Below are positions 2,401 to 58,944 of a stretch of 64,000 bases of DNA, in pieces. The position numbers and the translations under genes are program-made. Origin of the DNA: Isoetes taiwanensis (taxonomy: Eukaryota > Streptophyta > Lycopodiopsida > Isoetales > Isoetaceae); the NCBI GenBank assembly GCA_021234155.1, contig JAJEKV010000008.1:16282006-16346005 (forward strand). Reading direction: 5' to 3'. The notes under the pieces are model-generated. The model was not told where the DNA came from. It did no database searches and was given only the letters and a program-made list of their open reading frames with translations. How positions within the stretch are numbered: position 1 is the stretch's first letter; each line of letters begins with the position of its first letter.

Positions 2401-2786
2401 AAACTGTATTTGCCCTACCCTGGCTTCGCTCACATTACCCAGCGACGATGGTATACCCAGTGGCAGGTTTAGGGTTTGGCAATTTCATGGGGGTCACACT
2501 TCACAAAAGCTCAGGATCCCGTGTCAAATCACCGTAGGTCATTCCGAGGTCCCGGAATTATGGCACCGTGCTCTTCTTGGCGCCCGATCAGCACCCATGA
2601 GTACAACCAAGATAAATATACACATACTTTAAAACTAACAAAGTTACACACCCACAAACCTAACTTGCTAACAAACACATCAACCATACTACCCAAGAGG
2701 GTCTAAAAGTACTCTAGAGCTATCTCTACTTACTTAGTCTGGCGTGTTAGTACATGGCGGCAAATGATTTGGTCTACCAAGATCAT

Positions 2787-2799
2787 GCTTTCGATACCA
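2787..2799 (-). promoter_or_regulatory. Primer-binding site of an LTR retrotransposon
   Basis: Read on the minus strand this is TGGTATCGAAAGC, close to TGGTATCAGAGCC, the usual plant site complementary to the 3' end of initiator tRNA-Met. It sits one base inside the end of the LTR at 2801-3798, as expected for minus-strand primer binding. The internal region would extend leftward. Confidence 0.55.
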
Positions 2800-2800
2800 A

Positions 2801-3798
2801 TGTAATGCTCTCAATATATACGGGCCTTTCGGGGCGTATGCATCACGGGGACTTCCCTCCATGGCAATCAGCTCACCATGGCGAGGGGCCCTCGATCAAA
2901 CTTCGGACCATCCATAGAAAGATGCCGGGGTGAAGGAAGGACGAGGCCATTCCCCCACCTTCAATGGGACTCCTAAGTGGGCGTGAATACATGTTAGCAT
3001 ACAACATAAATCATACATAAATAACCACCCGAAGGGTGGCACATCCATCAAGTACTAGCGGCAAAGAAGAAGAAGTACAGGCCCTCTCCTCGCGGACCAG
3101 GCTATAAGCCTAGCACACACCATAGGAGTCCTGTGAGCAGCTCTAGGCAAGACCCCCCCCCGATTCACAGGCATACTGTTATCCTCGGTCTTTGAACCAC
3201 ATCATAGCATCCGGCCGGGCAGGCTCTTGTGCTGTAGCGGCCTAATGGGAATATCTGGGGGCTCTATCATCTAGGAGCATACACTACAATACATGGGCTC
3301 GAGAGGTCTCTATACCGTAATCCCCCATCTCGGTGTGCTAACTCAAGCAAAGAACTACTAAACCATCAACCAAAGCATATATAGAGACTAGAGATAAGAA
3401 TACTCACCATATCAATCAAGGGTTAGCTGCAAGGTAAAACCACATGCATCTAGAGAAAACGAGAGAGAACACACCACGAGAGGCGGCATGCTATAGATCA
3501 ACAAAGTAACCTCCACTAACCGTCAAATGGGTCTTGGAAACACGCTCCATCTCGACTAGTCAAGGGTGCACATTTGGCTGCCGCTTCTCCTCCTCCATCT
3601 CCAATCGCTTCCTAATTCAATTGGGGCCCAAAGCCCCCTAATTTGGGTGTCCCAAATGGAAACCGGGCCTTGCCCAATCGATTTGGGCGGTGTTAACTAA
3701 TTAAACTAATTAGGTTAATTAAGACAAAAATACCCTTAATTAGATTTTATTAATTTAAGCAGCTAAATTAATCCCTTTATGTCAATTCTAGGTTAACA
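2801..3798 (-). repeat. Long terminal repeat, about 1 kb, minus orientation
   Basis: On the plus strand the segment begins TGTAATGCTC directly beside the primer-binding site and can be closed at GGTTAACA, giving TG...CA ends and 998 bp. In minus orientation it is a 5' LTR (starts TGTTAACC, ends GCATTACA) followed by the priming site. No second LTR or pol is visible in the window, so the element is truncated or decayed. The outer boundary is inferred and coincides with the start of a 73-bp tandem array, so it could be off. Confidence 0.5.
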
Positions 3799-4015
3799 TG
3801 CCCCCATGATGGCGTATGCCTACTACGTGGCGATGTCGGTATTTTTATGTATATCATTATAATCGTGGACATACCCATGGTGGCGTATCTCTACTATTGA
3901 CGTGTCGGTTATTTGCCTCGCACCGTATAATAAATACGTGGACATACCATGGTGGCATATTTCTACTCCGTGGCCGTGTCCGGTATATTTATCGTATACC
4001 ATATAAATCGTGAGG
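3797..4015. repeat. Tandem array, three 73-bp units
   Basis: Units at 3797-3869, 3870-3942 and 3943-4015 are each exactly 73 bp. Each starts CATRCC..ATGRTGGC, contains a CTAC(T)..CG(T)GTCGGT core and ends around ATCGTGG or ACGTGGA. The copies differ by scattered substitutions, so the array is old but length-conserved. It abuts the LTR end and could be part of the same element or flanking satellite-like DNA. Confidence 0.8.
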
Positions 4016-13033: not shown

Positions 13034-16000
13034 ATGAAGATTTTATCTTGGAACCTTAGAGGAATTAAAGGCCCTCTTAAAAGGAGAAGAGCCATTGCTC
13101 AAATCAGGGTTTACAATGCTGATATTATCCTTCTTCAGGAGACCAAGCTTCCTTCCTTTGAATCTAGTAACTTGGGTGAATGGATTTATCCCAATTCCTC
13201 CTCTATTTGGATTGATTCTGCTGGGGCGAGTGGTGGCCTTGCTATCATCTGGAGGGCTGACCTCAATCATATCTCTTGTTATAATGGTCCCTCGAACACG
13301 GCAAAATTTGTTTCTCTTCTGTTTCCAACTCGTCTTTGGTATTGTCAACATCTATGCTCCAACTAATCCAAATGATAGAGAACCTGTTTGGAAAGAGATC
13401 AATTCCTGGCTAGCCTCTCAAAATTTGGATAATTGGATTCTAGCTGGGGACTTCAATAACACTCCTTCCTGGGACCTGAAATTAGGGAACAAAATCAATA
13501 TGTCTAGATCTGAGAGACAAGTCTGGGACTCTTTTCTATCAGATAATGGCCTGATCTATGTCCCCTCTTCAACTGCCAATTATACCTGGTCCAATAAGCA
13601 AAAAGATAAAGATAGAGTCTACTGTACTTTGGACAGATTTTATGTTTCCAATCCTTCCAATCCTTCCACTTCCTTCTGGGATAACAGTTATGTCTCTAGT
13701 GATGAAGGAACTTCTATTTCTGATCATCAACCTCAGTTTCTACATACTTCTCATGTCACCAGAATTCAAAGGCAAGGAAGTACCCCATATAAGTTCAATA
13801 CATCTCTCCTGGATAATGAGAACTTCTGCTCTCAGTTTACCGCCTTCTATGAGGATCTTTCTGTCAGAATGGATAATATTGCTACTGATAACATAGGTAT
13901 GCATCAGGGGAATGAGTTCTATTCTAAAATCAAAGCTATTAAATCTTGGATCAAAAAATGGTCCAAAGATAGGCATCTTCAGAGTGAAAAGGAAAAGAAT
14001 CAGCTTCTCATGTTCATGAAGGAAGTCAGATCTTTACTTCAACAAGATCCAACTAATTTAAACCTGCAAATTGGAGAGGAAGTTCTGGAAAGAAAGATTT
14101 AGAAACATTGAGGAGATGGAGGCCAAAGGATCTGCCATCAGATGTAAGATCAAATACTCTAATCAAATGGATTCTGGTAGCTCAAATTTTTCTTCAGGGT
14201 AGCTAAAAGCAGGGTGCTCAGAAACTCTATTACAGAAGTTGAGGATGATAGTGGAAATAAATATTCTTCACACTCTGAGATTGCTTCTTTCTTCAGAGAC
14301 AGATATATGGATATTTTTAAGAACAAGCCTATTCCTTTTAATGACATGGCAAAAGCAAGTGAATTTAAAAACATGGTTAATGATATCCTGCCTGCTGCTC
14401 CTGATCTGATGAATGCTTCTATAAGTGATCCTCCTTCTCAGCTTGAAATCTTATCTACCCTTTCTTCTTTCAGCAAGGGAAAATCTCCAGGTCCTGATGG
14501 GCTGCCAGCTGAGTTTTATGTTAAGTTCTGGGATATCCTTAAAGATGATATTACTTCCATGATTCATGAATTCTGGAATAATGACTGCCTTCAGACTTCT
14601 ATTGCTAGTGGTTTCATAGCTTTGATTCCTAAAGTTGATCATCCTAATAAGTTTCAAGATTGGAGACCTATCTCTCTCACTAATACTTCTTATAAGCTTT
14701 GTGCCAAGATTATTGCTCTGAGAATCAATAGCTATCTTCAAAGAAATATCAGTCCCAATCAGTCAGCTTTCCTCCCTAAGAGATACATTCTTGATAATTA
14801 TGTGGCAGCTATGGAGGGTTTACATTGGAACAAAATTTCAAACCAAAATTGCATTCTTCTCAAATTGGACTTCAAGAGAGCCTTTGACTCGGTCAGATGG
14901 GATTTTCTAGAATTTGCCATGGCCAAGCTTGGTTTTCATCCCAAGCTCATCAATCTAATTCTTGGTCTTAATCTTAGATCCAAATCAGCTGTGCTTATAA
15001 ATGGTGTGCCTTCTGGTTTTTTCTCTCTATCCTGTGGTGTTAGACAAGGGTGTCCTCTTGCACCTTATCTATTTCTAGTAGCAGCTGATTTGCTCACAAA
15101 AGTCATCTCTTATTATCAGGAAAATGGCCAAATCAAGGGTCTTAAACTTCCTAACTCAGATGAGTATCTCCTTGAAGCTGACTTGGCAAATATTGATTGT
15201 TTCCTAAAAGTCATTTATCAATTCTCATTTATGCAGGATTTATCTCAATGTCAATAAAAGCTTAATTATTGGTGATCTTCCCCATCGTTGAGTTCTTGGT
15301 ATTAATGTTCTCCCTTGGGTCAAGCTACTAAGCTTTTAGGAATGCCTTTATCTCTAGATCACAGCTTAAAAGGGCTTTGGGATCCTATTCTTCAAAGAAT
15401 TAAAAAAATTTGAATAATTACGGGGAATTATCTCACCCTAGCTGGTAGAACTATCATTGCTAACTCTGTTCTTGCAAGCTCTCATGTCTACTTTTCTACT
15501 GCTCTTGTTGCTCCTAAGTGTATTTATCTTGAGCTTCAGAAAATAATCAGAAATTTTATTTGGAAAGGCTGATCACTTGGTTAAGCTGGAATTCTATCGC
15601 AAGACAAAAACGGCGGTGGTCTTGGCTGCAAGGACCTTTTCCTCCAAGCCCAATCTCTTGCGGAGGTAAATTTGTTTGGAAAGCCATTTATGGGAGCCAA
15701 TCTCCTGCTCACAAATTCATCGGATTACGGATTAATCTCGGTCATCCTTACGGTCATCCATCCATTTCATCATCGTTACCAAACTCGCCTTTATCCATTT
15801 GAAAAGCTGCTCCAAATATCTCTCCTTTGATGAGCAATCTGATTAAGGCTTGGAATTCCATCTCTCCCCATTTCCAATTCATCTCATCAGATCATTTGCA
15901 CTCTGATATGCCTATCTTTTGAAACCCCATCCTAGCTAATCATAATTCCAATGCTCTGGCAATCAAACACCCTAGGATATGTAAGAAATGGCATGATGCT

Positions 16001-17282
16001 GGTCTGCTTTACATAAGAGATCTTTTAATTGGAGGTAGACTAATTTCTTGGACTGCTCTTAAAAATATCATAAGAGGTACCTCCTCTGACAGAAAAGTCT
16101 ATCTCCTCATCAAGCCTTTTTTGTCAAATCTTTCTCCTAACTCGGGAAAAGGTGACTGGTCTCTGAAAGGCAAGTTTGAGTACAAAGTGAGAGATGTCTA
16201 TAAGTCCCTATCCTATGATCCTAATAATATCAAGGCAATGACCAAATGGGGTATTAATCATGCTCAGCTAAAAGGTCTCTTCAAGAATGTTTGGGATTCA
16301 TACTGCCCTCCCAAAATTTCCTATTGTATATGGCTTCTTGCAAATGGCAGTTTAAGTAACTTACACTCCCTTTCTAAAAGATATCCTAATATTATGCCAG
16401 ATTGCCCTTTGGGATGCAATGATATTGAAGATATGTCTCACATTTTCAGCTACACTAAGTTGAATAGTTTTTGGAATTGGATTGCTAGAAAGTTTGGGAT
16501 TCATTATGATGGAAATTTGCTTTCCTTCTTCCAAAATGATGACAGTTTTAATAACACAGTTATTTTCATTGCTCTTTGGAATATCTGGAAGGCTAAAAAC
16601 CGTGTTTTGTATGGGAAGAAAAGACCTTCAGCTTTCTGGATTAAGATGAATTTCCAATTTGACTTTGAAACTATTGCTACTGCTCATAAAAATAAATTTG
16701 GAACTAATCATGACAGGAAATGGGAGTTTTATGGTGCTTATAGGGGGTTTTACAATTTATTTGCTTCCAATTTAAATGTTGTGGATTCTAATGTTTTCCT
16801 TTCTGATGAACCTAGAATATCTTGATTTCCTGCGTGGTGAGGGAGCAAGGAAATTTGATGACAACTCGCCATTCAGCCAACACTCAGTGGATCGAGTCAT
16901 GAAAAATGACTTGGCAACATCTATGGAGTCTTTTCTTATGAAGAGGGGACACATGAGGTATCTGAAAGAAAGTGAAGACCTTTGGGCATCTATCTTTTGC
17001 AAGGAAGTGGTTCAGATTCACTGCCTTTGGGCTTTCTTGGCCAATCATCATTTCATTCTCACTGAAAGGCAGCTGACAAGATACAGAACCATGTACTACA
17101 ATCATAAACTTCTAGCTGATCTGTATGGCTCCCTGCTGATTTTACTGGAGGTCAGAGATAAATTCAGGCTTTTCTTCACCAATAATTGGGGCCCGAATCA
17201 ATACTTCTTTGGATCCACTGACCCATTTAATGCCTACTTCAATGATGTCTTCTTCACTGATCATGGACTCCCTCTTCCATAG
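13034..17282 (+). pseudogene. LINE ORF2: endonuclease, reverse transcriptase, zf-RVT and carboxy-terminal extension
   Basis: The ATG at 13034 gives MKILSWNLRGIKGPLKRR and LLQETK, the start of the AP-endonuclease domain; AGDFNNTPSWD and SDHQP follow in another frame after a shift near 13310. A stop at 14102 precedes the reverse transcriptase (14214-15257): SPGPDGLPAEF, LIPKVDHPNKFQDWRPISL, LDFKRAFDSV, GVRQGCPLAPYLF. The next motif, the ADD catalytic box, is missing: SDEYLLEADLANID runs directly on. Frame then breaks near 15245; LNVNKSLIIGDLP and AGRTIIANSVLASSHVYF are readable beyond. The zf-RVT part lies at 16121-16825 (CPLGCNDIEDMSHIFSYT). A shift near 16800 leads to a helical extension ending at 17282. 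Confidence 0.88.
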
Positions 17283-23595: not shown

Positions 23596-24888
23596 TGGTC
23601 TTTGCCTCGGGGCGATGGTTCTGCTCTGTCCTTGGGCATCATCCTGCTGTCGTCCTCCTCTGCTGAATAATATGAAATAAAGCATTTGTCTTTTGCCTCT
23701 TTCATGTTTTTTGGATCCTTAATAAAAATGCGGTTTTATTGTGGTTCCTACGTGTTTTTTCTTTTTCCTTGAGGGGGGTGCCTCTTTATTTGTTGTTGTT
23801 CTCATGTACAAGACAATTAGAGGATTTGTAATATGGTGCTTCATTTGGTTATGAATCTTTTTTCCTATGTTCTTTTTACATTTTTCGTTTGAGTTGCCCA
23901 TGTGGTTTCTTGATATAAAGCACGATCTTATAATTATTTTCCCATGGTGGGTTCGGATTCTTTTCTCCTTTGCAATTGTGTTTTCTATGGGATTTCGATG
24001 CTTCGCTCTATTCTATGGTTGTTGCGTTATTCGGATTACTGTGTTATGTCTTTTTTATGCTTTCTGGATCCTCAATCAGGGGATTCTATTTCTATTTTTC
24101 TCTGCGGGGTTTTCTATTTGGATGTTGCCATTGTTCATATTTTATATACTACCTCATCCTCGTTGTATTTCCTTTTATGATATATATCATGTTTGTGATT
24201 CTTCTACTTATCTCGTTTTGTGCTTTATTGGCATCATCTCATGGGTTACACTTTGTTTTTTTTACGTTTATCCATTTTTGCACATTACCATGGGTACGTT
24301 TTTTCCTCTTATTCCTGTAGTTATTTGTCATTTTCCCTCATTATTCGTTGATCATTTGGGGGCTTGTATGTACGTGAGCTTCCTTTTATTCACTACCGGC
24401 ATTAACTCGGTTGTTTTTCCGCACTGTCCAGCGTTGGATTCCTTTGTTTTTTTTTGGCATATTGATCATTCCCAGGTTGCCGTATTATTTCAGTTACTTG
24501 TTATTCTTCCTTATTATTTATCGTTATTGTTTATTCTTTTTCCGGATCCATGATGAAGGGTTCCTTTTTGGACTTATCACCATCTGGATATTGGCCACGG
24601 GTTCGGAAGGAGTTATAGTCACATTCACGGACTTCAGTCCGTAGCCACATTCACGGACTTCGGTCCGTAATCTGTATTCGCCTAAAACTATCCATGGACA
24701 TAAGTCCGTGATCTGCATTCATATCCTATGTGCATTGTATGCCTTAATGTCGTTTGTTTTTCATCGCCTTGTTGCCGTTCTCGTTGGCATGCCGGGGCGC
24801 CTCCTTAGATTCGTCATCGTGGCGGCGTGCTTTTCTTTTCATTGTTTTTGTTCTCTAATGTCCTTCCTTTTTTCAGGTCATTGAGCTG
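23596..24888 (+). other. T-rich spacer between DIRS ORFs, intron-like
   Basis: About 1.3 kb of strongly T-rich DNA, with a possible polyadenylation signal (GAAATAAAGC, about 23674) at its left and a 3' splice-site-like CTTCCTTTTTTCAG just before the Gag ATG. A 228-codon hydrophobic frame (23867-24553) overlaps other long frames and is probably a composition artefact. It contains the hairpin cluster at 24627-24709. Confidence 0.45.
24627..24709 (+). other. Cluster of three short hairpins, one with a UUCG loop
   Basis: ACGGACTTCAGTCCGT (24627-24642) and ACGGACTTCGGTCCGT (24653-24668) are perfect stems; the second encloses a TTCG tetraloop closed by C-G. GGACATAAGTCC follows at 24696-24707 and is the inverse-complement variant of the same motif. 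The first two share the flank CACATTC or CCACATTC. In RNA these would be very stable; their role is unknown. Confidence 0.75.
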
Positions 24889-25953
24889 ATGCCGTCCATA
24901 GCAGGCGCTTCCGGCTCTTCTCCTTCAGCTTCACTTTCTCCCCCACGGCTCCCTCATGCTGCTGGTGCTCGTCGTCAACGTGAAGCTTCCCTTTCGCTTG
25001 AACCCGACTCCTCGGACCCTGGTTCCCTTTCTTCCCCTGCCTCGCCGGTTTCTGTCTCATCTACTTTCTCTTTTTGGTCCCCCTCAGCCTTTGCTGCTCC
25101 TTTCTCTTCTCTCGCCGGTACCGCTTTTCCTGTTTCTCCCACTCAGATGGCTCCTCTTTTTTCTTCTCTGCCGCAGGCATCTTCTGCCTTGGGGCCGCCC
25201 GTTTCTTCCGCGCCAGTTTCTCCTGAGTTCACCCAGCTACTACATGAGCTTCAACAGCAACGGGCCACACTCCAGGCACTCCAGACATCGATGACCCAGC
25301 AGTTGTCAGTTCAGACCCAACTTGAGCATCTCCAACAGGACATTCGAGAGCGGGCCGCTCGCCCTACTCCTTCTTTTGACCGCGACTTCATGCGGCTTTA
25401 CTACGAGTTTGCGTCTGCTATGGACACTCGATTTCGATGGATTCATGGCCGTCTTGCTATGTTGAGGGTTGCCATTCCGGACGATATGCTGCAGATGGTA
25501 GAAGAAGATAAGCGTTTGGCGGATCAAGAGATGAAATTTGTTCTTATTGCTGATCAACATGGATACGATATCGCTTTGCACTTTAGCGAGTCCCCTAGTT
25601 TGAACTTTTCTTCGGAAGAGTCCAAACGCCTGCATCAGGCTAAGAAATTCGCCCAGGAGAAGTGCCTATCTCATACTCGCCCTTCGCCGTACCCTTCCTC
25701 TGCTTCTTTTTCTCCCTCTGCTTCTTCCCCTGCCAATCCCTCCGCCCTTCGTTGTACTTTTTGTGGTCGTTTTCGCCACACTGCCGACAATTGTTTTCGT
25801 CACCAGTTTATCCATAACGTCGTTCCTCCTTTTTCTTCCCCTTATTTTTCTCAAGCTGTACCTCTCAACCCCACCCCTTTGATGGCCGTTCCTCCGCCAC
25901 CACAACATTCAGCCCTTCCTCCTCCTGTTTTGCCTCGGCCTTGGTCTTCTTGA
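24889..25953 (+). CDS. DIRS Gag protein with CCHC zinc knuckle
   Basis: An intact 354-residue frame. Residues 1-112 are S/P-rich and low complexity. Residues 114-160 form a likely coiled coil (FTQLLHELQQQRATLQAL). A conserved-looking globular part follows (165-260), then an S/P linker, then a CX2CX4HX4C knuckle at C289, C292, H297 and C302. The tail is proline-rich. In retrotransposons such a protein packages the RNA. The ATG lies 12 bp after a 3' splice-site-like CTTTTTTCAG. Being uninterrupted while RT and recombinase are broken, it is the best-preserved ORF in the element. Confidence 0.8.
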   Translation: MPSIAGASGSSPSASLSPPRLPHAAGARRQREASLSLEPDSSDPGSLSSPASPVSVSSTFSFWSPSAFAAPFSSLAGTAFPVSPTQMAPLFSSLPQASSALGPPVSSAPVSPEFTQLLHELQQQRATLQALQTSMTQQLSVQTQLEHLQQDIRERAARPTPSFDRDFMRLYYEFASAMDTRFRWIHGRLAMLRVAIPDDMLQMVEEDKRLADQEMKFVLIADQHGYDIALHFSESPSLNFSSEESKRLHQAKKFAQEKCLSHTRPSPYPSSASFSPSASSPANPSALRCTFCGRFRHTADNCFRHQFIHNVVPPFSSPYFSQAVPLNPTPLMAVPPPPQHSALPPPVLPRPWSS

Positions 25954-26036
25954 GCCGTTTTAGTTGTTCTGCACTATGTATTATATTTACTTTTGATCAT
26001 TAATAAAGCATTTTGTTTTCTAACGAGTCTTTTTTT

Positions 26037-27960
26037 GCAGATTGCCAACTTTTTACCTCTGCTTTACCCCACCTTCCCTTTGATCCGGTGGCTCTTGATT
26101 CCTACTATGTGACCTTGCCTGTGCGTGGGCGTCTCTTTGCAGCTTTACCTTTTTGGCACTCTATTTCTGCTCACCCTCTTGTATTGTCCTGGATCCGGTA
26201 TGGTTATGCTCTTCCTTGGGCCCAGGGACCCCCATCTCAACCATATTTTCGCCCGAACCTTTCCTCTCTGTCCTCCCATATTCCTTTTGCCCCTTCTGCC
26301 ATTCAAGATCTTTTGCGTTCTGGTGCTGTTATGCAAGTCCCATCTTGTCCCTTTTTCTGCTCACCCCTGGGCGTTGTACCCAAGGGCGACCATAAGTTCC
26401 GCTTGATTCTCGACTTGCGCTATCTTAACTCCTTTTTATCTGTTCCTTCTTTTCGTTACGAGTCGCTTTCTGATGCTTTGGCTGTCCTTCAACCCTAGGA
26501 TTTTCTTTTTACCTTGGATCTGAAATCCGGTTACCACCATGTTCCCATCTGGCCTCCTCATCACACCTTTTTGGGTTTTCAGTTTGACTCCCACTTTTTT
26601 GTCTTCACTATGCTTCCTTTTGGGCTGGCCTCTGCTCCCTTTGTCTTTACCAAATTGATGCGTCCTTTAGTCCGCCATTGGCGAGCGGCCGGTATTCGTT
26701 GCACCCCTTATATAGATGATTTCCTTTTTAATACTCAGCAGAATCCTAGTTCTCTTCAACATCGCATCATTTCTGATTTGCAATCTGCTGGTTTTCTCAT
26801 TGCTTGGCCTAAGTGTCGTCTGCGTTTGTCACATCGTGCTATTTTCCTCGGTTTTCTCCTTGATGCTTCTGCCATGGTTATTTGCCTATCTTCCAAGAAA
26901 TTGGCCAAGTTTTTTCACCTCTCCTCTTTGCTTATTTCCTCTTCTCATCGTACCTCACGTCACCTCGCCAAATTCTTGGGCTTTCTCCAGTCCCTTCGCA
27001 TTGTTTTCGGCTCCCTTATCTCCGCTTTAACCTTTTTTTTTTCTTATCGCCTTATTCAACCTTGGTACTGGGATGCTCCTATTTCTTTATCTTCTTTAGC
27101 CCGCATGGAAATTGTTTTATGGGAATCTATCGCCTCGTCTTTGAGTTTTCGCCCTATTTCCCCATCCCGTCGTCCTACGCGTCCTTGGTTTTGATGCGGT
27201 TCATTTTGGTTTGGGGGCTCTTGCTCGAGGCGAGAACCGCGTAGATTTTGTTGGCCTTTTTTCGAGTCGGAACTGTCTCATTCTTCCACTTGGCGCGAAC
27301 TCTTTGCTTTCTATCAAGTTTTGCGCTCCGCCTTGCCTTCTCTCCATGCTCGCCTGGTCACTGTCCGGAGAGATAATTTGAACATTGCCACCATTCTCCA
27401 AAAAGGGGGTTCTTCTTCGCCCGATATTCATTTTCTCACCTTAGAGATCTTCCTAATTTGTTTTCACTTTTCTATCTCTTTGGAGTCGGTGTGGATTCCG
27501 CGTTCCCAAAACGAGTGGGCCGATTACCTTTCTCGCCTTCCTCAATCTGCTGAGTTTGCCCTTGCCCCGTGGTGTTTTCACTATATTGATTCTTTGTGGG
27601 GCCCGCATCATGTTGATCGTTTTTCCTCTCCCCTTAATCACAAGCTCCCCGTTTATAATACTCGGTTCCCATATCCGCACCGCATTCCGCCTGATGCTTT
27701 TACGTATGATTGATGCCTCTTTAACAATTTTTGTTTTCCCCAGCCCTCTTTAGTTCCCCGCGTTTTACACCATGCGGCTGCGTGTCATGCTCGTATCACA
27801 CTGGTGGTTCTTCATTGGCCTTCCGCACCGTGGTGGCCCTTACTCTGGACTGGATCGACGTGGGCGCCTTTTATTAAAGAATTTCTGTTTTTTGATGCAT
27901 TTTCATTGGCTTTATTGCCCCATACATCGGCAACCTTTGCAGGATGTCGGCGTCATGTAG
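26037..27960 (+). pseudogene. DIRS reverse transcriptase, RNase H and adjoining domain
   Basis: The coding frame is readable from the 3' splice-site-like CTTTTTTTGCAG at 26040 and has no ATG near its start. It shows FCSPLGVVPKG..FRLILDLRYLN, one TAG at 26496-26498, then FTLDLKSGYHHVPI, LPFGLASAPFVFTKL and the catalytic YIDD (26709-26720). A frameshift near 27190 leads to FDAVHFGLGALA (RNase H) and another near 27285 to STWRELFAFYQVL and VWIPRSQNEWADYLSRLP, the end of a DIRS/gypsy-type RNase H. The next part (WGPHHVDRFSSPLNHKLP and, in another frame, LVVLHWPSAPWWPLL) matches the segment usually found between RNase H and recombinase in DIRS elements. Three or more lesions inactivate it. Confidence 0.85.
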
Positions 27961-50716: not shown

Positions 50717-50990
50717 TAAAAAAACCATAAACCCACATATGTAATGACAAAGGACGTGGCTACAATGTAACATAGTCATCTTATGGAAATAAGACCAGTG
50801 TCATCCCACACGGTCACCTTATATAAGATCACGGTCACGGCGAAGTAGGAGAAGATGGCGAAGCAGGGTCTTGTATGTTTATTATGACAATGCTCATGTC
50901 CAATAGAGTAGACTATAGGAATAAGAAATGTCATGTCATTTTTTTTTTGGGCAAAATGTTAAAATGTTAATAGTACAATGCAAATGTTCA
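50717..50990 (+). repeat. Promoter-like repeat P, copy near gene A
   Basis: AACCATAAACCCACATATG, ATCCCACACGGTCACCT, TATATAAG (50820-50827), CACGGTCACGGCGAAGTAGG, GAAGATGGCGAAGCAGGGTC, then TTGTATGTTTATTATGAC and, past a poly-T run, GGGCAAAATGTTAA. Confidence 0.8.
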
Positions 50991-51038
50991 TCGATGCCTC
51001 ACAGTAAATGTTCATCGAGCTGGCGGTCCGCGAGCAGC

Positions 51039-51152
51039 GGTAAAGGCCGTTGAGGCCATTTTTCTGGCAGAAAAGGCCTGGCGGCGGCCCGCCAGGGCGC
51101 TCCGCCCGCCAGCCTTTTCCGCGTAAAAACTGGCTCAACAACGCTTTACCTT
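51039..51152. repeat. Foldback element Q, copy 3
   Basis: GGTAAAGGCCGTTGAGGCC...AAAAGGCCTGGCGGCGGC and the inverse arm ...CCTTTTCCGCGTAAAAAC...GCTTTACC surround a C/G-rich loop. The flanks AGAGGGCCACATTTCGGCAG and AGCTGGATGCCATGTCAGC match copy 1 inverted. Confidence 0.75.
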
Positions 51153-51224
51153 ACATAAAGGTAAAGAGGGCCACATTTCGGCAGTCAGCTGGATGCCATG
51201 TCAGCAAATTCTGGATGCCAAAGT

Positions 51225-51500
51225 TCATCAATGGCTCACAGGTAAGGTAACATTGAAAAAAAAAACCATAAACCCACATATGTAATGACAAAGGACGTGG
51301 CTACAACGTAACACGCTCACCTTACGGAAATAAGACCAGTGTCATCCCACACGGTCTTATATAAGACCACGGTCATGGCGAAGTAGGAGAAGATGGCGAA
51401 GCAGGGTCTTGTATGTTTATTATGACAATGCTCATGTCCAATAGAGTAAACTATAGGAATAAGAAATGCCATGTCATTTTTTTTTTTGGGCAAAATGTTA
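51225..51500 (+). repeat. Promoter-like repeat P, copy directly upstream of gene A
   Basis: CATCAATGGCTCACAGGTAAGG, CCATAAACCCACATATG, ACACGCTCACCTTACGG, ATCCCACACGGTC, TATATAAG (51358-51365), GGTCATGGCGAAGTAGGAG, AAGATGGCGAAGCAGGGTC. The P reading frame from ATGGCGAAGCAGG stops after about ten codons. Confidence 0.8.
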
Positions 51501-51750: not shown

Positions 51751-51828
51751 CCTCACATTTGAAGCCTCACATTTGAAGTTTGACGTTGAAAAAAAAATCC
51801 AGAATGCAATGGCGAAAGACGTCCTACA

Positions 51829-51882
51829 CGGTCATCTCACGCGGTCAACCCGCGGTCATCCCACACGGTCAGTCTATATAAG
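51829..51882 (+). promoter_or_regulatory. Promoter of Dof-like gene A: four CGGTCA motifs and a TATA box
   Basis: CGGTCA occurs at 51829, 51842, 51853 and 51866, spaced 13, 11 and 13 bp, and TATATAAG at 51875-51882, 34 bp before the ATG at 51909. A start site 25-35 bp after the TATA box would leave a very short leader, so the second in-frame ATG (51915) may be used. The dispersed P repeats carry the same motif/TATA/ATGGCGAAGCAGG arrangement. Confidence 0.65.
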
Positions 51883-51908
51883 ATCGTCATTTCACACCAA
51901 ACACCAAA

Positions 51909-52739
51909 ATGAAGATGGCGAAGCAGGGTGAAGCGCTTAAGAAGTGTAAAACGGCAAAGAGTGAAGGTGTTAAAAAGTCTAGAATAATGAAGAACACAAA
52001 AAAGAAGCTTGAACAGATAGAGAAGATAGAGGAATTCAGCTATTTGGAGCAAAAGAATAGGGCTAAGGTTGAGCTTCTCACTAAGTTGCAGAATATGGCC
52101 AAGTCCACAAAAGTTAAGATGATGGAGAAGTCTGAGGAATTCAGCTACTTGGAGCAAAACAAAGGTATGTTGTTTTTTGAGGAAGAAGTTGCCATGTTGG
52201 ATGACTTGTTGGCCCAAGAAAATTTCAATTCTCCATCACAAGAAGATGGGGATATCTACTACAGGCAAACTGTTGTAGGCTCTCAAACCCTTGAGGAATT
52301 GTTTGATGAAAACTTGCCAAGACTAGAGGAACATGGAGATATGCTTGACTTTGTCAACGTCAAGAAGCAAAAAGACGGGGATATCAATGAAGTAAATGCG
52401 ATGTTGGCAAACATTGAGTTGCCAAGCCTTCAAGAATTGTTTGATGAAGACTTGCCTCCGCTTTGTGAGGTAAGTCTAGAGGAACATAGGGACATGCTTG
52501 ACGTGGTCAATGTCACTCACGAAGTAGATGGCTTGTTGTCAAAGATAGACTTGCCTGTCCTTGAGGAATTGTTTGATGAAGACTTGCCAACATTTTGCGA
52601 TGCAAGACTAGAGCAATCAGGAGGCGCATCACAAGAAAATGATCATTTAGACATGCTTGACTTGATTAATGTCTCGGTCAACAATAAGAAGCTAAAGGAG
52701 GCAAGCGGGGATGATGATGAGACATGTTCTTTGGGATGA
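51909..52739 (+). CDS. Gene A, amino-terminal ORF: repeat-containing acidic protein
   Basis: An intact 276-residue frame. Residues 1-75 are lysine-rich with a nuclear-signal-like KKSRIMKNTKKK. EEFSYLEQ occurs at 41-48 and 76-83. Three repeats follow: L(E/Q)ELFDE(N/D)LP at 128-137, 174-183 and 218-227, each followed after 11 to 20 residues by DMLD(F/V/L)(V/I)NV (144-151, 195-202, 248-255). The second half is acidic, as in an activation domain. The Dof-like finger lies downstream, out of frame, so this is either a free-standing acidic protein or the broken first part of the gene. Gene B shares the repeat. Intactness of 831 bp in this decayed neighbourhood is notable. Confidence 0.65.
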   Translation: MKMAKQGEALKKCKTAKSEGVKKSRIMKNTKKKLEQIEKIEEFSYLEQKNRAKVELLTKLQNMAKSTKVKMMEKSEEFSYLEQNKGMLFFEEEVAMLDDLLAQENFNSPSQEDGDIYYRQTVVGSQTLEELFDENLPRLEEHGDMLDFVNVKKQKDGDINEVNAMLANIELPSLQELFDEDLPPLCEVSLEEHRDMLDVVNVTHEVDGLLSKIDLPVLEELFDEDLPTFCDARLEQSGGASQENDHLDMLDLINVSVNNKKLKEASGDDDETCSLG

Positions 52740-53027
52740 GTTTGATCCGCGTGTTGGCACAAAAATGAAGATAGGGATGACGAAGAAGCAAACACAAGAA
52801 GTAGCACATTCTTTGGGATGAGTTTGATGCCATGTTGGCACAAAAAGGTAATTGTGAACAAAGACAATAATATGTTTGATGGATGATGGCAAGTGAGGGG
52901 TGATGATGAGACATGTTCTTTGGGATGAGTTTGATGGCATGTTGGCACAAGCAGAAGATAGGGATGACGAAGAAGCAACACAAGAAGTAGCATGTTCTTT
53001 GGGATGAGTTTGATGCCACGTTGGCAA
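52721..53027 (+). repeat. Four degenerate copies of TTCTTTGGGATGAGTTTGAT within gene A
   Basis: Copies near 52727, 52809, 52915 and 52994, each followed by GC(C/G)(A/C)(T/C)GTTGGCA and usually by AAG...GAAGATAGGGATGACGAAGAAG. In one frame they read LWDEFDAMLAQ; gene B has LLWEEFNTLLAQ at the equivalent place (58263-58300), so this was protein-coding. The frame no longer connects to either side. Confidence 0.65.
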
Positions 53028-53109
53028 TGGCGAATTGCTAAACAAAGACAATCATATGTTTGTTGGACAGCAATACTTGCGTAAACACCGCCACAACAGT
53101 TGAATATGG

Positions 53110-53613
53110 TTGGGGGTGAATTTGATGCCTTATTGGCGGGAGGGCATTGTCGAGGAAAAGTCCATGGTCAATGCATCATTTGCAATTAGAAGTCAACAAG
53201 CTATGGCAATTGTATCGGGGAACCAATGGCATCAAAGGGGAGCAACAAGTGGCGCAGCTCCAAGGATGAAAAGCGGTAAGACGATCATGCCCAAGTATGA
53301 CCGCCCTCGGTGTTTCAAAAGAGTGACACCCGTTTCGACTATTTTGAGAATAAAAAGGCAAAGCAACCGAGGTATTATTGTAGGCACCGCGACTGGGGAT
53401 TTGGACCATCGGGGGCAACCGAGGCCATCTCAAGCTCTCGACCGCAATAAAAGATCCGAATGCCAATCCAAGATCGCGAATAAAAAGATCCGGGATGCCA
53501 ATCATAACTTGGCTTCGTACACACTCGACCACTTGTATGCGGTTATTGAAGATGCATGGTTGTTGGTCATAAGAGACTTGTGCCAGTTATTATATTGGAT
53601 AGCTGCCATTTGA
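53110..53613 (+). pseudogene. Gene A, 3' part with frameshifted Dof-like zinc finger
   Basis: At 53302-53396 the sequence reads RPRCFK and then, after a one-base frame change, SDTRFDYFENKKAKQPRYYC and RHRDW. A Dof finger is CPRC..S..TKF.YYNN....QPRYFC..C.RYW, binding DNA at AAAG. Here the first Cys is Arg (CGC) and the last Cys is also Arg (CGC), and the frame is broken. The upstream AAGTCAACAAGCTATGGCAA matches gene B (GTCAACAAGCTACATGGA). The 168-codon open frame is the non-Dof frame. I infer a Dof-type transcription factor gene that has lost function. Confidence 0.6.
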
Positions 53614-56600
53614 AAATACTTGTAAATAATCCGCGAATGTGCCTTTTGTAAATACTCAGCCACTTGTATTGTTATCAAGACCCGCCATTTGTAATATTTA
53701 TCACAATGTTGTCAGCGGTTTACATTCTTTAGTAGCTACAAAGAATAATTGAGCTATTAGTGCTTGTCTTTGTGGCGTTAGTGCCTCATTACTAGTGGCA
53801 AGCGTAAGTACTTACATTCTTGTCGCTTGTGTGCTAGCCGTGCAACCACCAGCCATAATGCTCCTTTAACGTTAGTCGTGGACCAAGGGTTTTGGACTAG
53901 CAATTGCATAAAGACTCAAAAATGGTTTCTTAGATTTATGGAGGATCCTTGCCATGTGGGTTAAGTATTAAATGGATGGCTTGATCAATTTGATTGCTAA
54001 AAAGAGTTTGATTTTCAATTAACGAGTCATTATCAAGATTGAAGAGAAAGATATATGAGTCATGTTAAATCTGCAACTCTTGCATTGAGAAATAAGCCGA
54101 GGATTGGGTAATAAATTGCATTATGGTGTTTACAAACACCACGGTCTTGACACCTTTATCATCTGAGATGCTTTATTTGAGAATGAGTAAATGAATCCAA
54201 GTAGCATATTTTGCGACTTGGCGGATACTCCCGTGGCTGAAATAAACTACCATATGATAGCCTTGGCAGTTCTTCAAGTTAGGATAATCTATTATTGCAT
54301 TATGAGAACTGTACTTAAGCCATTTGCATGCACCTTTCTCGCTTGAGAGCGGTTTGCATGAGATTGTGGTTGTTCATCTTGTTAGATCTATAAGAACAAC
54401 TATTTAATATCAAATTGTCATCAATAACTTCCATCAACAATTTGTTCTTGGTGCAAGTATTTTATAACAAAGACATTTTGAAAGAATTAGTCAAAATTTA
54501 AGTGTCTCTTATAAGTTGCCCTTGAGTCCGATATTTTGAGTCGATATGTGATTGTGATCTTTGGCAAAACCAGCGGTTGTGACACTAAAAATTTTGTTGA
54601 AAAAGATGGTGTTATGCGCACATCATTACCCGACCAAGATATCTCGATATGAACAAACATATTGTTATTCCATGCCTAGAACGTACATGACTTTGCTGGA
54701 TTATTTCATCTCAATCTCCATTCTGTTAAGCTTGGAAAGCATCTTAAGCATCTTATAAATCTGATATTTTGAGTCTGATATGTGATTTTTGGAAAGCATC
54801 TTAAGGACTAGATTCTTTGGCATGCCTTTGTGGATGAATCATATAATCATGATCATGATCAGGAGGACAAAGCTGCGAGGGTCTTTAGTAAATGCAGCCC
54901 ATCATTATTTCCGTTTGTTTAGATTTGATGAGGCAAGGAAAGCACGGGATTAGTAATTAGTAGAATCAGGGGACTTTGACAAGGCAAGCTCTTTCTTGGA
55001 TCACACCCGGATGATGCAAATAAACGAAAGTTTATCACCGCATTATATTGTAAGTTCATTCTCTACGCTTTAATAAATTTGAAGCATTAAGCTTTCATTT
55101 AGAATATGTCATACCTCGGGAATATCACATCATCTTTGGAAGTCGGATCAATAGCTTAGCCATAGATAAACATGTACCTTGAATCAACTGCAATCTAGAT
55201 CAAGCGAGGCAACCTCTCCTTAGCTTGAGTTGTCATGGCTATTTCTTACGCCTTCTAGTGGCATATTTCTTTACTTGAGATTGTTTTGCCTCTCGTCTAA
55301 CATTACTACAATGTAAAATTCTAATTTAGGTTATGATAAGCTTTGTACTTGCTAGTTATGCATGCATGTTTTAAGAGATACATCTTTTGGACATAAAACC
55401 ACTGGGTCAATGGTCTTTGTTGCTCCTCACATATTGATATCAATACAAGCTAGCATCGGTATACTTCATGGGCACTATCTGATTCGATAGATCATGCATG
55501 CAATGCCCTTCCGATCTACTTCCGGTTGCTCACAAGCAATATACCTTGTCCACTATATAGTAGGACTACACATGATTCTCATGGTAAATGCATAGAATAT
55601 TGTTGAAGTCTACATCTTGACAGAAATTGTTCTTTCACATGGCCCCATTTTTCCTTATCTTTGCATCCTTATTGGATAAATTGTAATAGTGTACTAGTCT
55701 ATAGAAAAACATTGTTCATCCTATTGTTGTCCATTGTTTCAAAACAAAAGCCTCGACTAGGATGTTTATAATGATGGTCACCAAATGCATTGCCGCCAAA
55801 ATATCTTTGGTGTAATGATTGCTCTAAACTTGATGTTTGCGTGCTTTGTTTTCTAACAAAAGTTAAGCGGTAAAAGCCTTGACATAGGAATAGGTGGAAA
55901 TAGAACTGGATCATATAACTCTATTAGATTAGTCATATATCTAATAGCATGTCTATTCCATAGAAGTTTGGTTGTTGAATAACCCTCGTATCTTTGTTGC
56001 ATGTTTACAAGTGCTAATTTAGAGGATGCTCTGTGCGGTGATGGGTCGTAGAACAATTACAACTCACATTATTGACTTCATACTTTAAACATCAACTTGA
56101 ATTCATTGTTGTGCTAGAACAGATAACATTATAGACCGCAAGTTGTTTCATAGTATATGATTTACGAAAACAAGAGCCTTTGTCAATCTCGATTGCTTCT
56201 GAAGAAGCCGAGTTCAAAGCTTTGTGACCATTAAAGGCGATCGACTGCGGCACTGTTCCTTGTATCAACATATATTTTTCCATGTTAATATGCAATTGCT
56301 TTACTTTAAAGCGAACCAATGTTCCAGGAATGAATGGGTTCGATTCTTATTTTAGGCCTTTACGTCTATATACGGTTATTCTCCCTATGGATATGGATAA
56401 TGAGAAACTCTTCCTTCTTACTCCATAGTTCTAGTTGTTAATGAGATTTCCTTGACTGAAAGGTGCCTATGTTCAAGAAGCCTCTTCGTTAAGGCCCTAC
56501 TATTAACCATGTGTACATATATGGTCACCATATGGACTACAAGGAGTTGTCATGAAGCATTCATAGCAATTACATTTAGCTATTTCTCCTGAATAGTGGC

Positions 56601-57040
56601 AACAAGGGCTTATGTTACATGCTGGATGTTGCAAGTTGCAACTATTCTCTTACCTAGAACTGTCTTACCTTCTTGAAAGGACCTCAAGATGTTTAGTTCA
56701 TGGGAACTTGAGGTATAATATTTTAGGATCAGGTGGTAGTCTAGAATTCCAAGATAAAAGTTCTTCTTACTCTGGTATTCTCAAATTTTTGTGGAAGACT
56801 AGAGAAATCTTCATTTCTACCTGCAACTTTCAGCTGAACAATACTTCTTAACCCCTTTTTCTCGACCAGTGGGTCCAGAAACCCTTCTTCTCGACTAGTC
56901 GAAAGGTTTGTAATAGAGTATTGATTAATTTAATTTATATTTAATTAAGTTAATAATTAATTAAATCTTTTTTTTTTTAATATTAATCATCTCAGAAGCA
57001 TGGTAATATTGCTTGCTTCCTTGCATTCTCGACTTCCCTT
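53614..57040. other. Long intergenic region, no recognisable gene
   Basis: AT-rich single-copy-like DNA. Short frames only. TCTGATATTTTGAGTC and GTCCGATATTTTGAGTC near 54530-54780 form a weak duplication. Nothing supports a gene. Confidence 0.5.
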
Positions 57041-57044
57041 TTAA

Positions 57045-57200
57045 CTCTTGTGGCTCCACCCTTCCCTCGCTCCCCGCTCTTCCCCCTTGCCCCCAACTTC
57101 TTTTCCCCTTCCCCAACTTCTCCTTTTTGCCTTTCCCCTCCTCATGTGCCCCCTTTTCCCCTTTCTTTACTCCTCCCCTCCCCTCTCTACCACTTTCCCA
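57045..57200. other. Polypyrimidine tract, about 155 bp
   Basis: Nearly uninterrupted C/T on the plus strand (CTTCCCCTTCCCC-like runs). Such tracts can adopt triplex structures and often lie in plant promoters. The 68-codon frame through it (57013-57219) is a composition effect. Confidence 0.6.
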
Positions 57201-57326
57201 ACTTGAAAATTATGTTTGAAAATTCTTGAGAACTTTCTCAACTCGTGGTTAGAAAATTTTAAAGATGTGTGTTTCTATCACTGATTCAATGCAAAACTTT
57301 TTTTTTCTGTAAGATTTCCATTGTCT

Positions 57327-57690
57327 GCATGAGTTCCAAATGTCAGGGGAGTCTTACATTGTCTGCATGAGTTCCAAACGTCAGGGGTTAAATCGGCTAA
57401 GTTGTTAGACAGATCCGATCAAGAAGACTCTTGCTATTACGATTTTGCTTCTTGCTGTAAAAAACTCAAGAAGACCAAGGCTTTCAAAGCACAATGTGAA
57501 AGCAAGGATGCGATGGCAGATAGAGGTAGTTATGCCGCTTAATCTATGCCCTATTGCAAAAGTCGACCACTTGAAGCAATAATCGACAATCCTAAAGCAA
57601 CTCCCTAGGCAACCCAAAAATATCTATTACAGAAAATATCAGTAACATTTTGTGGACAATAATATCAGTAACATTTTGTGGACAATAATG
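57327..57690. repeat. Two short tandem duplications upstream of gene B
   Basis: CATTGTCTGCATGAGTTCCA occurs at about 57328 and 57357 with its following TCAGGGG. AATATCAGTAACATTTTGTGG occurs twice at about 57636 and 57661. Both are recent-looking slippage duplications. Confidence 0.75.
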
Positions 57691-57815
57691 TTTGTTTTAA
57701 TATCCTCTTAGATCTTACCATTTTCTATCTTCTAGGAAAACCCCATTCCTTATAAAAACCCCATTCCAATTTGTCATTCAAGACATAAAGAGAGAAGAGA
57801 AGAAAGAAGACGATC

Positions 57816-58235
57816 ATGATGGTGGTGATGCGTGACGAAGAAGACTTTATTTTTACTCCGGAAGAACTGAGTTATTTGTGTTGTGGCAAAGAGCAAAAGG
57901 AAGAAAAACAAGGTGAGTTTCGTGGTGATTTTGACTTCAATTTTGACGGAGACTTGGCAATGGTTGGGGACGAAATGTCACAACGAGACGTCAATGGCTT
58001 GTTGTCACAAACATTCCAAGATTTCAATTCTTGGCAGCAAGAAGAGGCCCTAGTCAACCTAAAAGAAAAACAAGGGTATGGCTTGTTGTTGGCAGCGTGT
58101 GGTCTTGATGAAGACTTGTCTGCAGACTTGCCAACGCTTTGTGAGGCAAGACTAGAGGAGACAACACAAGGAAATGGTCATGGACACATGTTTGACGTGG
58201 TCAATATGATGATCAACTGTAAAAAAGCGAAGTAG
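57816..58235 (+). CDS. Gene B, amino-terminal ORF, 139 residues
   Basis: ATG at 57816, after CCTTATAAAAACC (possible TATA at about 57750) and a purine-rich leader GAGAGAAGAGAAGAAAG. The protein is acidic. FTPEELSYLCCGKEQ (14-28) parallels EEFSYLEQ of gene A. The segment LDEDLSADLPTLCEARLEET followed by HMFDVVNM parallels the FDEDLPTFCDARLEQ...DMLDLINV repeat of gene A; only one such repeat is present. Downstream, out of frame, LLWEEFNTLLAQAELP and a Dof-like finger follow. The two genes are paralogues. Whether this ORF is translated alone is unknown. Confidence 0.6.
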   Translation: MMVVMRDEEDFIFTPEELSYLCCGKEQKEEKQGEFRGDFDFNFDGDLAMVGDEMSQRDVNGLLSQTFQDFNSWQQEEALVNLKEKQGYGLLLAACGLDEDLSADLPTLCEARLEETTQGNGHGHMFDVVNMMINCKKAK

Positions 58236-58944
58236 AGATGATGAGGAGCCAATGAGAACAAGTAGCACTTCTGTGGGAAGAATTCAACACCTTGTTGGCA
58301 CAAGCAGAATTACCAAGACGAGCACGGGCCTTTTGAACATGGAAATGCAAGACCAACACAAGAAGGGGTGAATTGATGGCTTAGGCTTTGGTTGCTCGTG
58401 GCAACAAATGATAAGAGGTGTTGAACCTGTCTTGCATGGTCATGGAGTGGAACACTCTACTATCGGGCATGGTTGACCTCGTCAATGCATCCTTTCAAGT
58501 TGCAGTCAACAAGCTACATGGATGTTTGCCTATTAGCAATAATATGTATCAGAATGAACAAGCGATTTGCAGGTCAACAAGTTACAAGGATGTTGCCTAT
58601 TAGTAATAATATGTATCGATTGAACAAGCAATGGCGGCATCAAGGGGCGAAGAAGCAAAAAGATCATGCCCCAAGCAAAGTAATATTTATCGAATGAAGA
58701 AGCAAGGGCAGTACGCAAGGATGAAGTGGCAAAAGATACATTGTGCCCCCTCTTTGGTCCAAGTGATGACACTCGTTTCGACTATTTTGACAACAAGGAT
58801 CTAAACCAACCAAGATATAAATGTAGGAGGTGCAAGAAGAGATGGACACTTTCGGTGGCAAGGCAAAGGCGGCCGGGGTTATTGAGATTGTATAGCTGCT
58901 ACCCATCATTCACATGTATGCAATTGTACAGCTGTCATTTGTAA
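58236..58944 (+). pseudogene. Gene B, 3' part with Dof-like zinc finger
   Basis: At 58744-58848 the frame from ATG 58726 reads CPLFGPSDDTRFDYFDNKDL then NQPRYKCRRCKKRWT. It fits the Dof pattern C-x2-C-x21-C-x2-C with the second Cys replaced by Phe and one extra residue before DTRF. The frame runs on as LSVARQRRPG, where Dof proteins have a glycine-rich segment, so a further shift is likely. Between 58236 and 58725 stops and shifts separate LLWEEFNTLLAQ (58263-58300) and a VNK(L)HG segment shared with gene A. The finger has one missing ligand, so zinc binding is doubtful. Confidence 0.65.

Follow-up and report, generated by a model that had tools for sequence, protein, structure and literature searches.

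Can a plant gene keep an acidic, repeat-bearing open reading frame (ORF) while losing the DNA-binding finger encoded downstream of it? The question is raised by two genes, A and B, in a 64,000-nucleotide stretch of the Isoetes taiwanensis genome (C1089:16282006-16346005; this whole stretch is called the window below), for which an original prediction had proposed that the acidic ORF is kept without its DNA-binding part. We searched the 1658.26-Mb assembly (1110 contigs) for relatives and compared both genes with 84 stretches fetched from the same genome and numbered with the prefix L, including 26 A-type loci (L001-L006 and L021-L040) and 13 B-type loci (L007-L009 and L041-L050). The comparison points to a different answer: we think it probable that A and B belong to an Isoetes family of activator-like proteins derived from Dof, and that the lesions in the window are nanopore miscalls at methylated CHG sites in repeats.

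Acidic repeats and a Dof-type finger in one frame

As assembled, gene A opens with a 5' part (51909..52739, + strand; 831 bp, 276 aa) that joins a lysine-rich start to three acidic repeats of the form LxELFDE(D/N)LP...DMLDxxNV, continues through a middle part whose frame is broken mostly at CAG/CTG sites (52740..53300, +) and reaches a Dof-like finger (53300..53432, +). Gene B runs from a 138-aa 5' part with a EDFIFTPEELSYL motif, an acidic part and one degenerate repeat (GLDEDLSADLPTLC...; 57819..58235, +), through a frame-broken middle part (58236..58735, +), to its own Dof-like finger (58736..58880, +). Both acidic-repeat ORFs of the original prediction were confirmed, and so were the Dof-type fingers downstream: the PF02701 profile (curated cut-off, 26.6 bits) matched gene A at 53319-53399 with 32.9 bits and gene B at 58759-58851 with 48.1 bits, and hmmscan of the gene B finger frame returned Dof at 48.5 bits. 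The gene A frames 53104-53610 and 53384-53569 gave no hmmscan match because the finger stretch lies in another frame, and gene A matches to Rad17 (16.7 bits) and DUF1922 (13.9 bits) fell below their cut-offs and were taken as chance. Neither gene holds a full CX2CX21CX2C finger as assembled.

Three A-type relatives do. In the stop-to-stop open frames of L001 (490 aa), L004 (500 aa) and L005 (502 aa), a lysine-rich start, LFDEDLP repeats, a further acidic repeat of the CCWDEFDAxLAQ type (the counterpart of the broken middle part of gene A) and an intact CX2CX21CX2C finger (CPRCFSSDTRFDYFENKKxxQPRYYCRxCDRDWTIGGKLR) follow one another in a single frame. A fourth, L002, is open over 560 aa with a scrambled finger interior; the 5' part of gene A is 94% identical to L001 and L002. 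The unusual pairing of acidic repeats with a Dof-type finger thus stands, whereas the proposal that the acidic ORF survives without its DNA-binding part is not supported, since L001, L004 and L005 hold both in one frame with all four cysteines. Splicing of the acidic ORF to the finger was considered and rejected, the GTAAGT at 52470 notwithstanding: no intron is needed in gene A because these three copies read straight through.

Across the genome, the PF02701 profile matched at least 123 places (150 of 236 candidates scored), comprising five canonical Dofs at 117-122 bits, one further place at 86 bits and others at no more than 77 bits, many of them clustered. The gene A ORF matched 86 pieces of the genome and the gene B ORF 37. 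The B-type locus L008 is open over 340 aa, finger included, and the same plan recurs in subfamily C (C1034:22.8-24.4 Mb, for example L010, 294 aa) and subfamily D (for example L012, L056, L075 and L013, 414-428 aa). N-terminal parts match between subfamilies (L001/L008, 5e-21; L010/L012, 1e-20), weakly so between A and D (L001/L012, 0.004). These sequence matches place A and B in two subfamilies that are related to each other. Family proteins also carry a short basic patch, APxMKKxK or the like.

Are these fingers Dof fingers? PMC10842470 gives the Dof criteria as a CX2CX21CX2C finger placed N-terminally, with a C-terminal regulatory region. All 13 coding frames examined from relatives show this spacing (frames chosen as open, with the L002 interior scrambled), and seven representatives of subfamilies A-F score 62-74 bits against PF02701 (nine representatives of groups A-G, 33-74 bits). 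Among solved structures, the finger profile comes closest to the CDF1 Dof domain (8xuf, 1.7e-24); our literature search found no paper on a CDF1 Dof structure. Like Dof proteins of the CDF and PAPL lineages, family members have one zinc ribbon with the residue pattern CPRC..(N/D)TxFxYxxN...Q..Y/H.C..C...(W/F)..GG..R. Unlike canonical Dofs, the A-F fingers listed lack the LRNVPVGGG tail while keeping (W/F)xxGGxxR, and the A-D fingers carry D for the C of FCY; subfamilies E and F keep FCYFNN. In a tree of 46 finger columns, drawn from this genome alone, the canonical Dofs stand apart from A-G, with the deep order poorly resolved and L014 not grouping with D.

The plan of the protein differs more strongly from that of canonical Dofs, with a late finger, an acidic repetitive N-terminus and tandem clusters. 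Eight A-D members have their finger 0.72-0.88 of the way along the protein (where L008 and L014 begin is uncertain), compared with 0.06-0.31 in the five canonical Dofs of the same genome, which are partial proteins cut by stretch ends. By a criterion of our own (acidic residues with hydrophobic or aromatic clusters, rather than a trained predictor), the eight A-D members contain 7-40 activation-like windows and the five partial canonical Dofs none, and only 0-2 of 300 shuffles reached the observed count in L001, L004, L005, L013 and L014.

Three further groups have Dof-like fingers in other settings. Subfamily E has an acidic, tryptophan-rich N-terminus (L064, L065, L073); in L065, L066 and, in another frame, L064, the Dof finger is followed by a further CxxC...CxxC ribbon. 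In subfamily F (L015, L016, L061, L063, L070) the finger is followed by GGICRDL, and L015, L016 and L063 also have repeats of the DLKE type. Subfamily G (L017, L019, L077, L078; also L018 and L080) has long open frames and a Dof-like finger without the fourth cysteine (PF02701, 38.4 bits in L019 and 33.5 bits in L018).

Selection was gauged by pairwise NG86 with a codon bootstrap; some deep pairs lie near synonymous saturation, and all the ratios would be affected by remaining errors and by gene conversion. Fingers are under purifying selection in all three bootstrapped between-subfamily pairs (omega 0.10 for L008/L010, 0.24 for L001/L012 and 0.27 for L010/L012; upper 95% bounds below 1), and two pairs without bootstrap gave 0.46 (L008/L001) and 0.28 (L010/L013). 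Inside D, a ratio of 1 is not excluded (L012/L013, 0.47; L013/L014, 0.45), and the identical fingers of L010 and L054 give no ratio. N-terminal parts range from 0.38 to 0.69 over eight pairs, with an upper bound below 1 in six. Neutral evolution of the gene A 5' ORF, an alternative raised with the original prediction, is excluded against L005 (0.41; 95% 0.22-0.79) but not against L001 (0.54), L002 (0.39) or L004 (0.54). The gene B 5' ORF differs from L007 by a dN of 0.030 and a dS of 0.056 (without bootstrap).

Lesions at CAG/CTG sites

If relatives are intact, what broke genes A and B? The lesions cluster at one trinucleotide. Over 35 copy pairs, CAG/CTG sites were kept in 867 of 1459 cases, compared with 13563 of 14661 for a control set of other trinucleotides; the figures are 15/50 and 417/464 for gene A against an intact copy, and 15/32 and 297/342 for gene B. 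Small indels follow suit, with 219 of 489 falling near CAG/CTG in a zone of 9806 of 55739 columns. To avoid hand-picking a motif, we ranked all 32 trinucleotide classes: in the 35 unselected pairs CAG/CTG came last (0.59), after CGC/GCG (0.72), with ATG/CAT kept best (0.95). Each of the two window genes had it last as well, gene A at 0.30 (next class, 0.69) and gene B at 0.47 (next ones, 0.50-0.60 on 2-5 sites). In 15 copies picked for low survival CAG/CTG was kept at 0.36, a selection that inflates the contrast with 11 clean pairs, where it was kept at 0.90 and classes range over 0.77-0.96. The 592 lost sites became CGG/CCG (125), carried indels (158), changed in the C-to-T manner (103) or underwent other substitutions (206). 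Ordinary C-to-T decay was rejected as the main cause, accounting for a part of the losses at most.

The individual breaks in gene A and gene B mostly fit this pattern. The apparent stop of the gene A ORF at 52739 comes after a frameshift at a GCTGG site (52729), and the same change, TTGCTGGGA to TTCTTTGGGA, recurs at four internal repeats (52729, 52811, 52918 and 52997). In the gene A finger, Cys1 and Cys4 were each altered from TGC to CGC through CTG-to-CCG changes, and 2-nt insertions at 53317 and 53399 both lie at CAG/CTG sites. The apparent stop of gene B follows a 1-nt insertion in an A-run (58221) adjoining a CTG site; in its finger the first CxxC is disturbed at CTG sites (1-nt deletion, 58755) and the second (CRRC) is intact. 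Counting frame-shifting small indels with CAG/CTG within 5 nt gives 16/21 for gene A against L002, 9/11 against L001, and 7/12 for gene B against L007. Both fingers are broken as assembled, as originally predicted; that the damage is biological was not confirmed, since it concentrates at CAG/CTG.

Damage is patchy within copies. Against L001, the first 800 bp of gene A show ordinary substitutions, and past about 52715 most CAG/CTG sites are changed. Differences in the 5' part amount to 3.1% outside and 10.0% inside CAG/CTG zones (6/60 columns), and in the 3' part to 6.8% outside and 32.8% inside; of five clean pairs, L010/L011 has a slight excess inside (3/114 columns) and the other four have none. 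The sequence is also depleted of the motif: CAG/CTG observed/expected is 0.30, 0.36, 0.59 and 0.51 in the four 2-kb bins of window 52-60 kb, compared with 0.57-1.09 elsewhere in the window apart from its first 4 kb. Those first kilobases (1-4000) form a second low patch, at 0.44-0.47, and ORF calls there need the same caution.

Cytosines in CAG/CTG are CHG sites, which are commonly methylated in plant repeats, and short-read polishing performs poorly in near-identical repeats. No natural decay process known to us both substitutes the central base of CAG/CTG and produces indels at the site. The lesions would then be nanopore basecalling errors at CHG-methylated cytosines, left standing in repeats beyond the reach of short-read polishing. 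PMC8566536 describes the assembly as built from Oxford Nanopore Technologies (ONT) R9.4.1 reads called with Guppy 3.1, assembled with miniasm and then polished with racon and pilon. A search for papers on CHG-linked nanopore errors found none. In bacteria, according to PMC6591954, default ONT models fail at methylated CCWGG. The likeness to these Dcm-site consensus errors lies in systematic errors at one motif under a default basecaller; unlike them, the present errors would fall at CAG/CTG in a plant, with methylation deduced from comparing paralogues. Most likely, the lost fingers reflect errors in this assembly. Because the lesions appear to be uncorrected miscalls, the real sequences of both genes probably carry less damage than the assembled ones and may even be intact.

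The tandem A-B unit and the type A promoter

The A-B pair is a unit of a tandem array, because the spacer recurs with A and B hits on either side. The spacer (53600..57780, no strand assigned), searched over 54200-57300, recurs at full length at C1089:16391392 (96%) and C1089:16421661 (94%); along C1089:16.39-16.53 Mb, further matches of about 2.6 kb stand at 91% and 90%. Three units have both A and B hits: the window itself, 16389149/16395037 and 16419357/16425464. Among other copies, the dispersed ones on C907 and C1070 have 2.9 kb in common at 97%, and those on C958 and C1032 stay colinear for nearly 9 kb; the latter pair may represent haplotigs counted twice.

Type A copies also share a promoter module. 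In gene A (51828..51881, +) it comprises four GGTCA boxes, spaced apart, and then a TATATAA that begins 34 bp before the ATG; 160 bp contain four GGTCA where shuffles give 0.22. The module was looked for in 18 A copies, gene A and 17 of the 26 loci: 17 have three to seven boxes near TATATAA, and the remaining one, L006, was not placeable. Across A copies, TATATAA starts 24-47 bp before the start codon used and 0.17-0.29 boxes are expected. An exact 20-base pattern of the module has 29 matches genome-wide and one for the backward control; 27 of the 29 lie within about 140 bp upstream of gene-A pieces and the other two inside the C1089 cluster. Two more fragments of the promoter and start region of an A unit lie upstream of gene A (50718..51494, +), about 540 bp apart. 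GGTCA reads TGACC on the opposite strand, which we take to be the W-box core; WRKY control of the type A promoter is a guess.

Elsewhere in the window, a LINE-like element (13038-16822) has reverse transcriptase (86.2 bits) and zf-RVT (38.1 bits) matches and an endonuclease match just below its cut-off (26.3 bits). A retroelement (24859-27713) has a reverse transcriptase match of 51.7 bits, preceded by an ORF with a CCHC-like knuckle identified by eye.

Competing explanations and a possible role

Several observations weigh against a family of sound genes obscured by miscalls, and some of them suit the alternative of real pseudogenes or truncated genes in the window, with a decayed finger and a retained acidic ORF. 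Both ORFs end before the finger, and several lesions fall outside CAG/CTG: comparison with L002 puts 5 of the 21 gene A frameshifts away from such sites and comparison with L007 puts 5 of the 12 gene B ones there, several of them at homopolymers, and the tail of the gene B finger is disturbed from 58850, at a site without CAG/CTG. Just three of 26 A-type loci (four counting L002) are open throughout with a good finger and none of the 13 B-type loci is open from its EDFIL start to the finger, leaving 22/26 and 13/13 not open throughout, and birth-and-death families shed pseudogenes. The C-to-T share of the CAG/CTG losses (103/592) may mean that real decay is mixed in. CpG classes are also worse kept (0.72-0.77); even the clean loci L001-L005 have CAG/CTG at 0.73-0.82 of expectation, compared with 0.95-1.46 at the five canonical Dof loci; within type A, an omega of 1 is excluded only for gene A against L005; and L008 (43/300), L010 (32/300) and L012 (20/300) exceed their shuffles only weakly in activation-like windows. 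Pseudogenization nonetheless seems an improbable account of the window, because its lesions gather at one trinucleotide class as middle-base changes and indels, the identical change recurs at four internal gene A repeats, gene A differences are enriched inside CAG/CTG zones, unlike those of most clean pairs, and the CAG/CTG deficit reaches into the spacer.

Many copies, some dispersed (C907:26.6 Mb, C1037, C1081), together with the presumed CHG methylation, might also suggest a mobile element family with the fingers as its cargo or working part, and an IS1595 transposase ribbon does match L008 (15.7 bits) and L019 (13.3 bits), in both cases below the cut-off of 25.4. We regard this as very unlikely, having compared one dispersed A pair and one B pair: a search of nine representative proteins for transposase domains gave nothing above cut-off, inspection by eye of the ends of the dispersed A pair C907/C1070 revealed neither a terminal repeat nor a target-site duplication, and the C958/C1032 colinearity fits segmental duplication or haplotigs. 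Least credible of all, with hardly any weight in our judgement, is that the fingers are generic zinc ribbons that came to resemble Dof by convergence; the missing NVPVGGG tail and the D in place of the C of FCY in A-D fingers would suit it, but Dof spacing and residue pattern are kept, E and F retain FCYFNN, PF02701 scores of 62-74 bits compare with 13-17 bits for other ribbon models, and CDF1 is the best solved relative.

A Dof-derived family whose window copies were miscalled, the reading we prefer, suggests how its members might work. The N-terminal part consists of acidic repeats rich in hydrophobic and aromatic residues, a short basic patch comes next, and one Dof-type zinc ribbon lies close to the C-terminal end. 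The basic patch would carry the protein into the nucleus, the ribbon would bind DNA at a putative AAAG-like core, by analogy with Dof transcription factors, and the acidic repeats would recruit the transcription machinery and activate transcription. Members of the family are likely transcriptional activators. Both tandem and dispersed duplication have enlarged the family, which lies in several clusters and probably evolves by birth and death, with methylated copies probably silenced.

Animal KRAB and ZAD zinc-finger clusters are likewise lineage-specific and clustered, with an effector region joined to a zinc domain that binds DNA. The Isoetes family resembles them in each of these respects, and differs in having a single Dof-type ribbon and no C2H2 arrays, an acidic activator-like part and no repressor domain, and no evidence of a genomic-parasite target. 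It is a variant of Dof proteins that we did not meet in literature searched by titles and abstracts (Isoetes, Dof, lycophytes), which gave no description of such a family; the word 'Dof' is absent from the main text of PMC10541799, on I. sinensis, and from the available portion of PMC8566536. PMC13161181 reports 10-22 Dof genes in three species called ferns, Isoetes not among them.

These findings matter for work on this public genome, where frameshifts and lost residues in multi-copy loci can be systematic one-motif sequencing errors; pseudogene calls, family counts and protein models in such loci deserve checking. More tentatively, the family might be an inverted-architecture Dof activator superfamily with KRAB-like birth and death and W-box-like (TGACC) type A promoters, whose miscalls record CHG-silenced copies. 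It is similarly possible, though doubtful, that the family forms an active, fast-evolving regulatory layer in a lycophyte for which the profile scan shows just five or six canonical Dofs. Accepting the clean copies as they stand would mean that a large family of zinc-ribbon regulators arose from Dof in a lycophyte; the route, if true, would have been the addition of acidic repeats to a Dof protein with the finger placed last.

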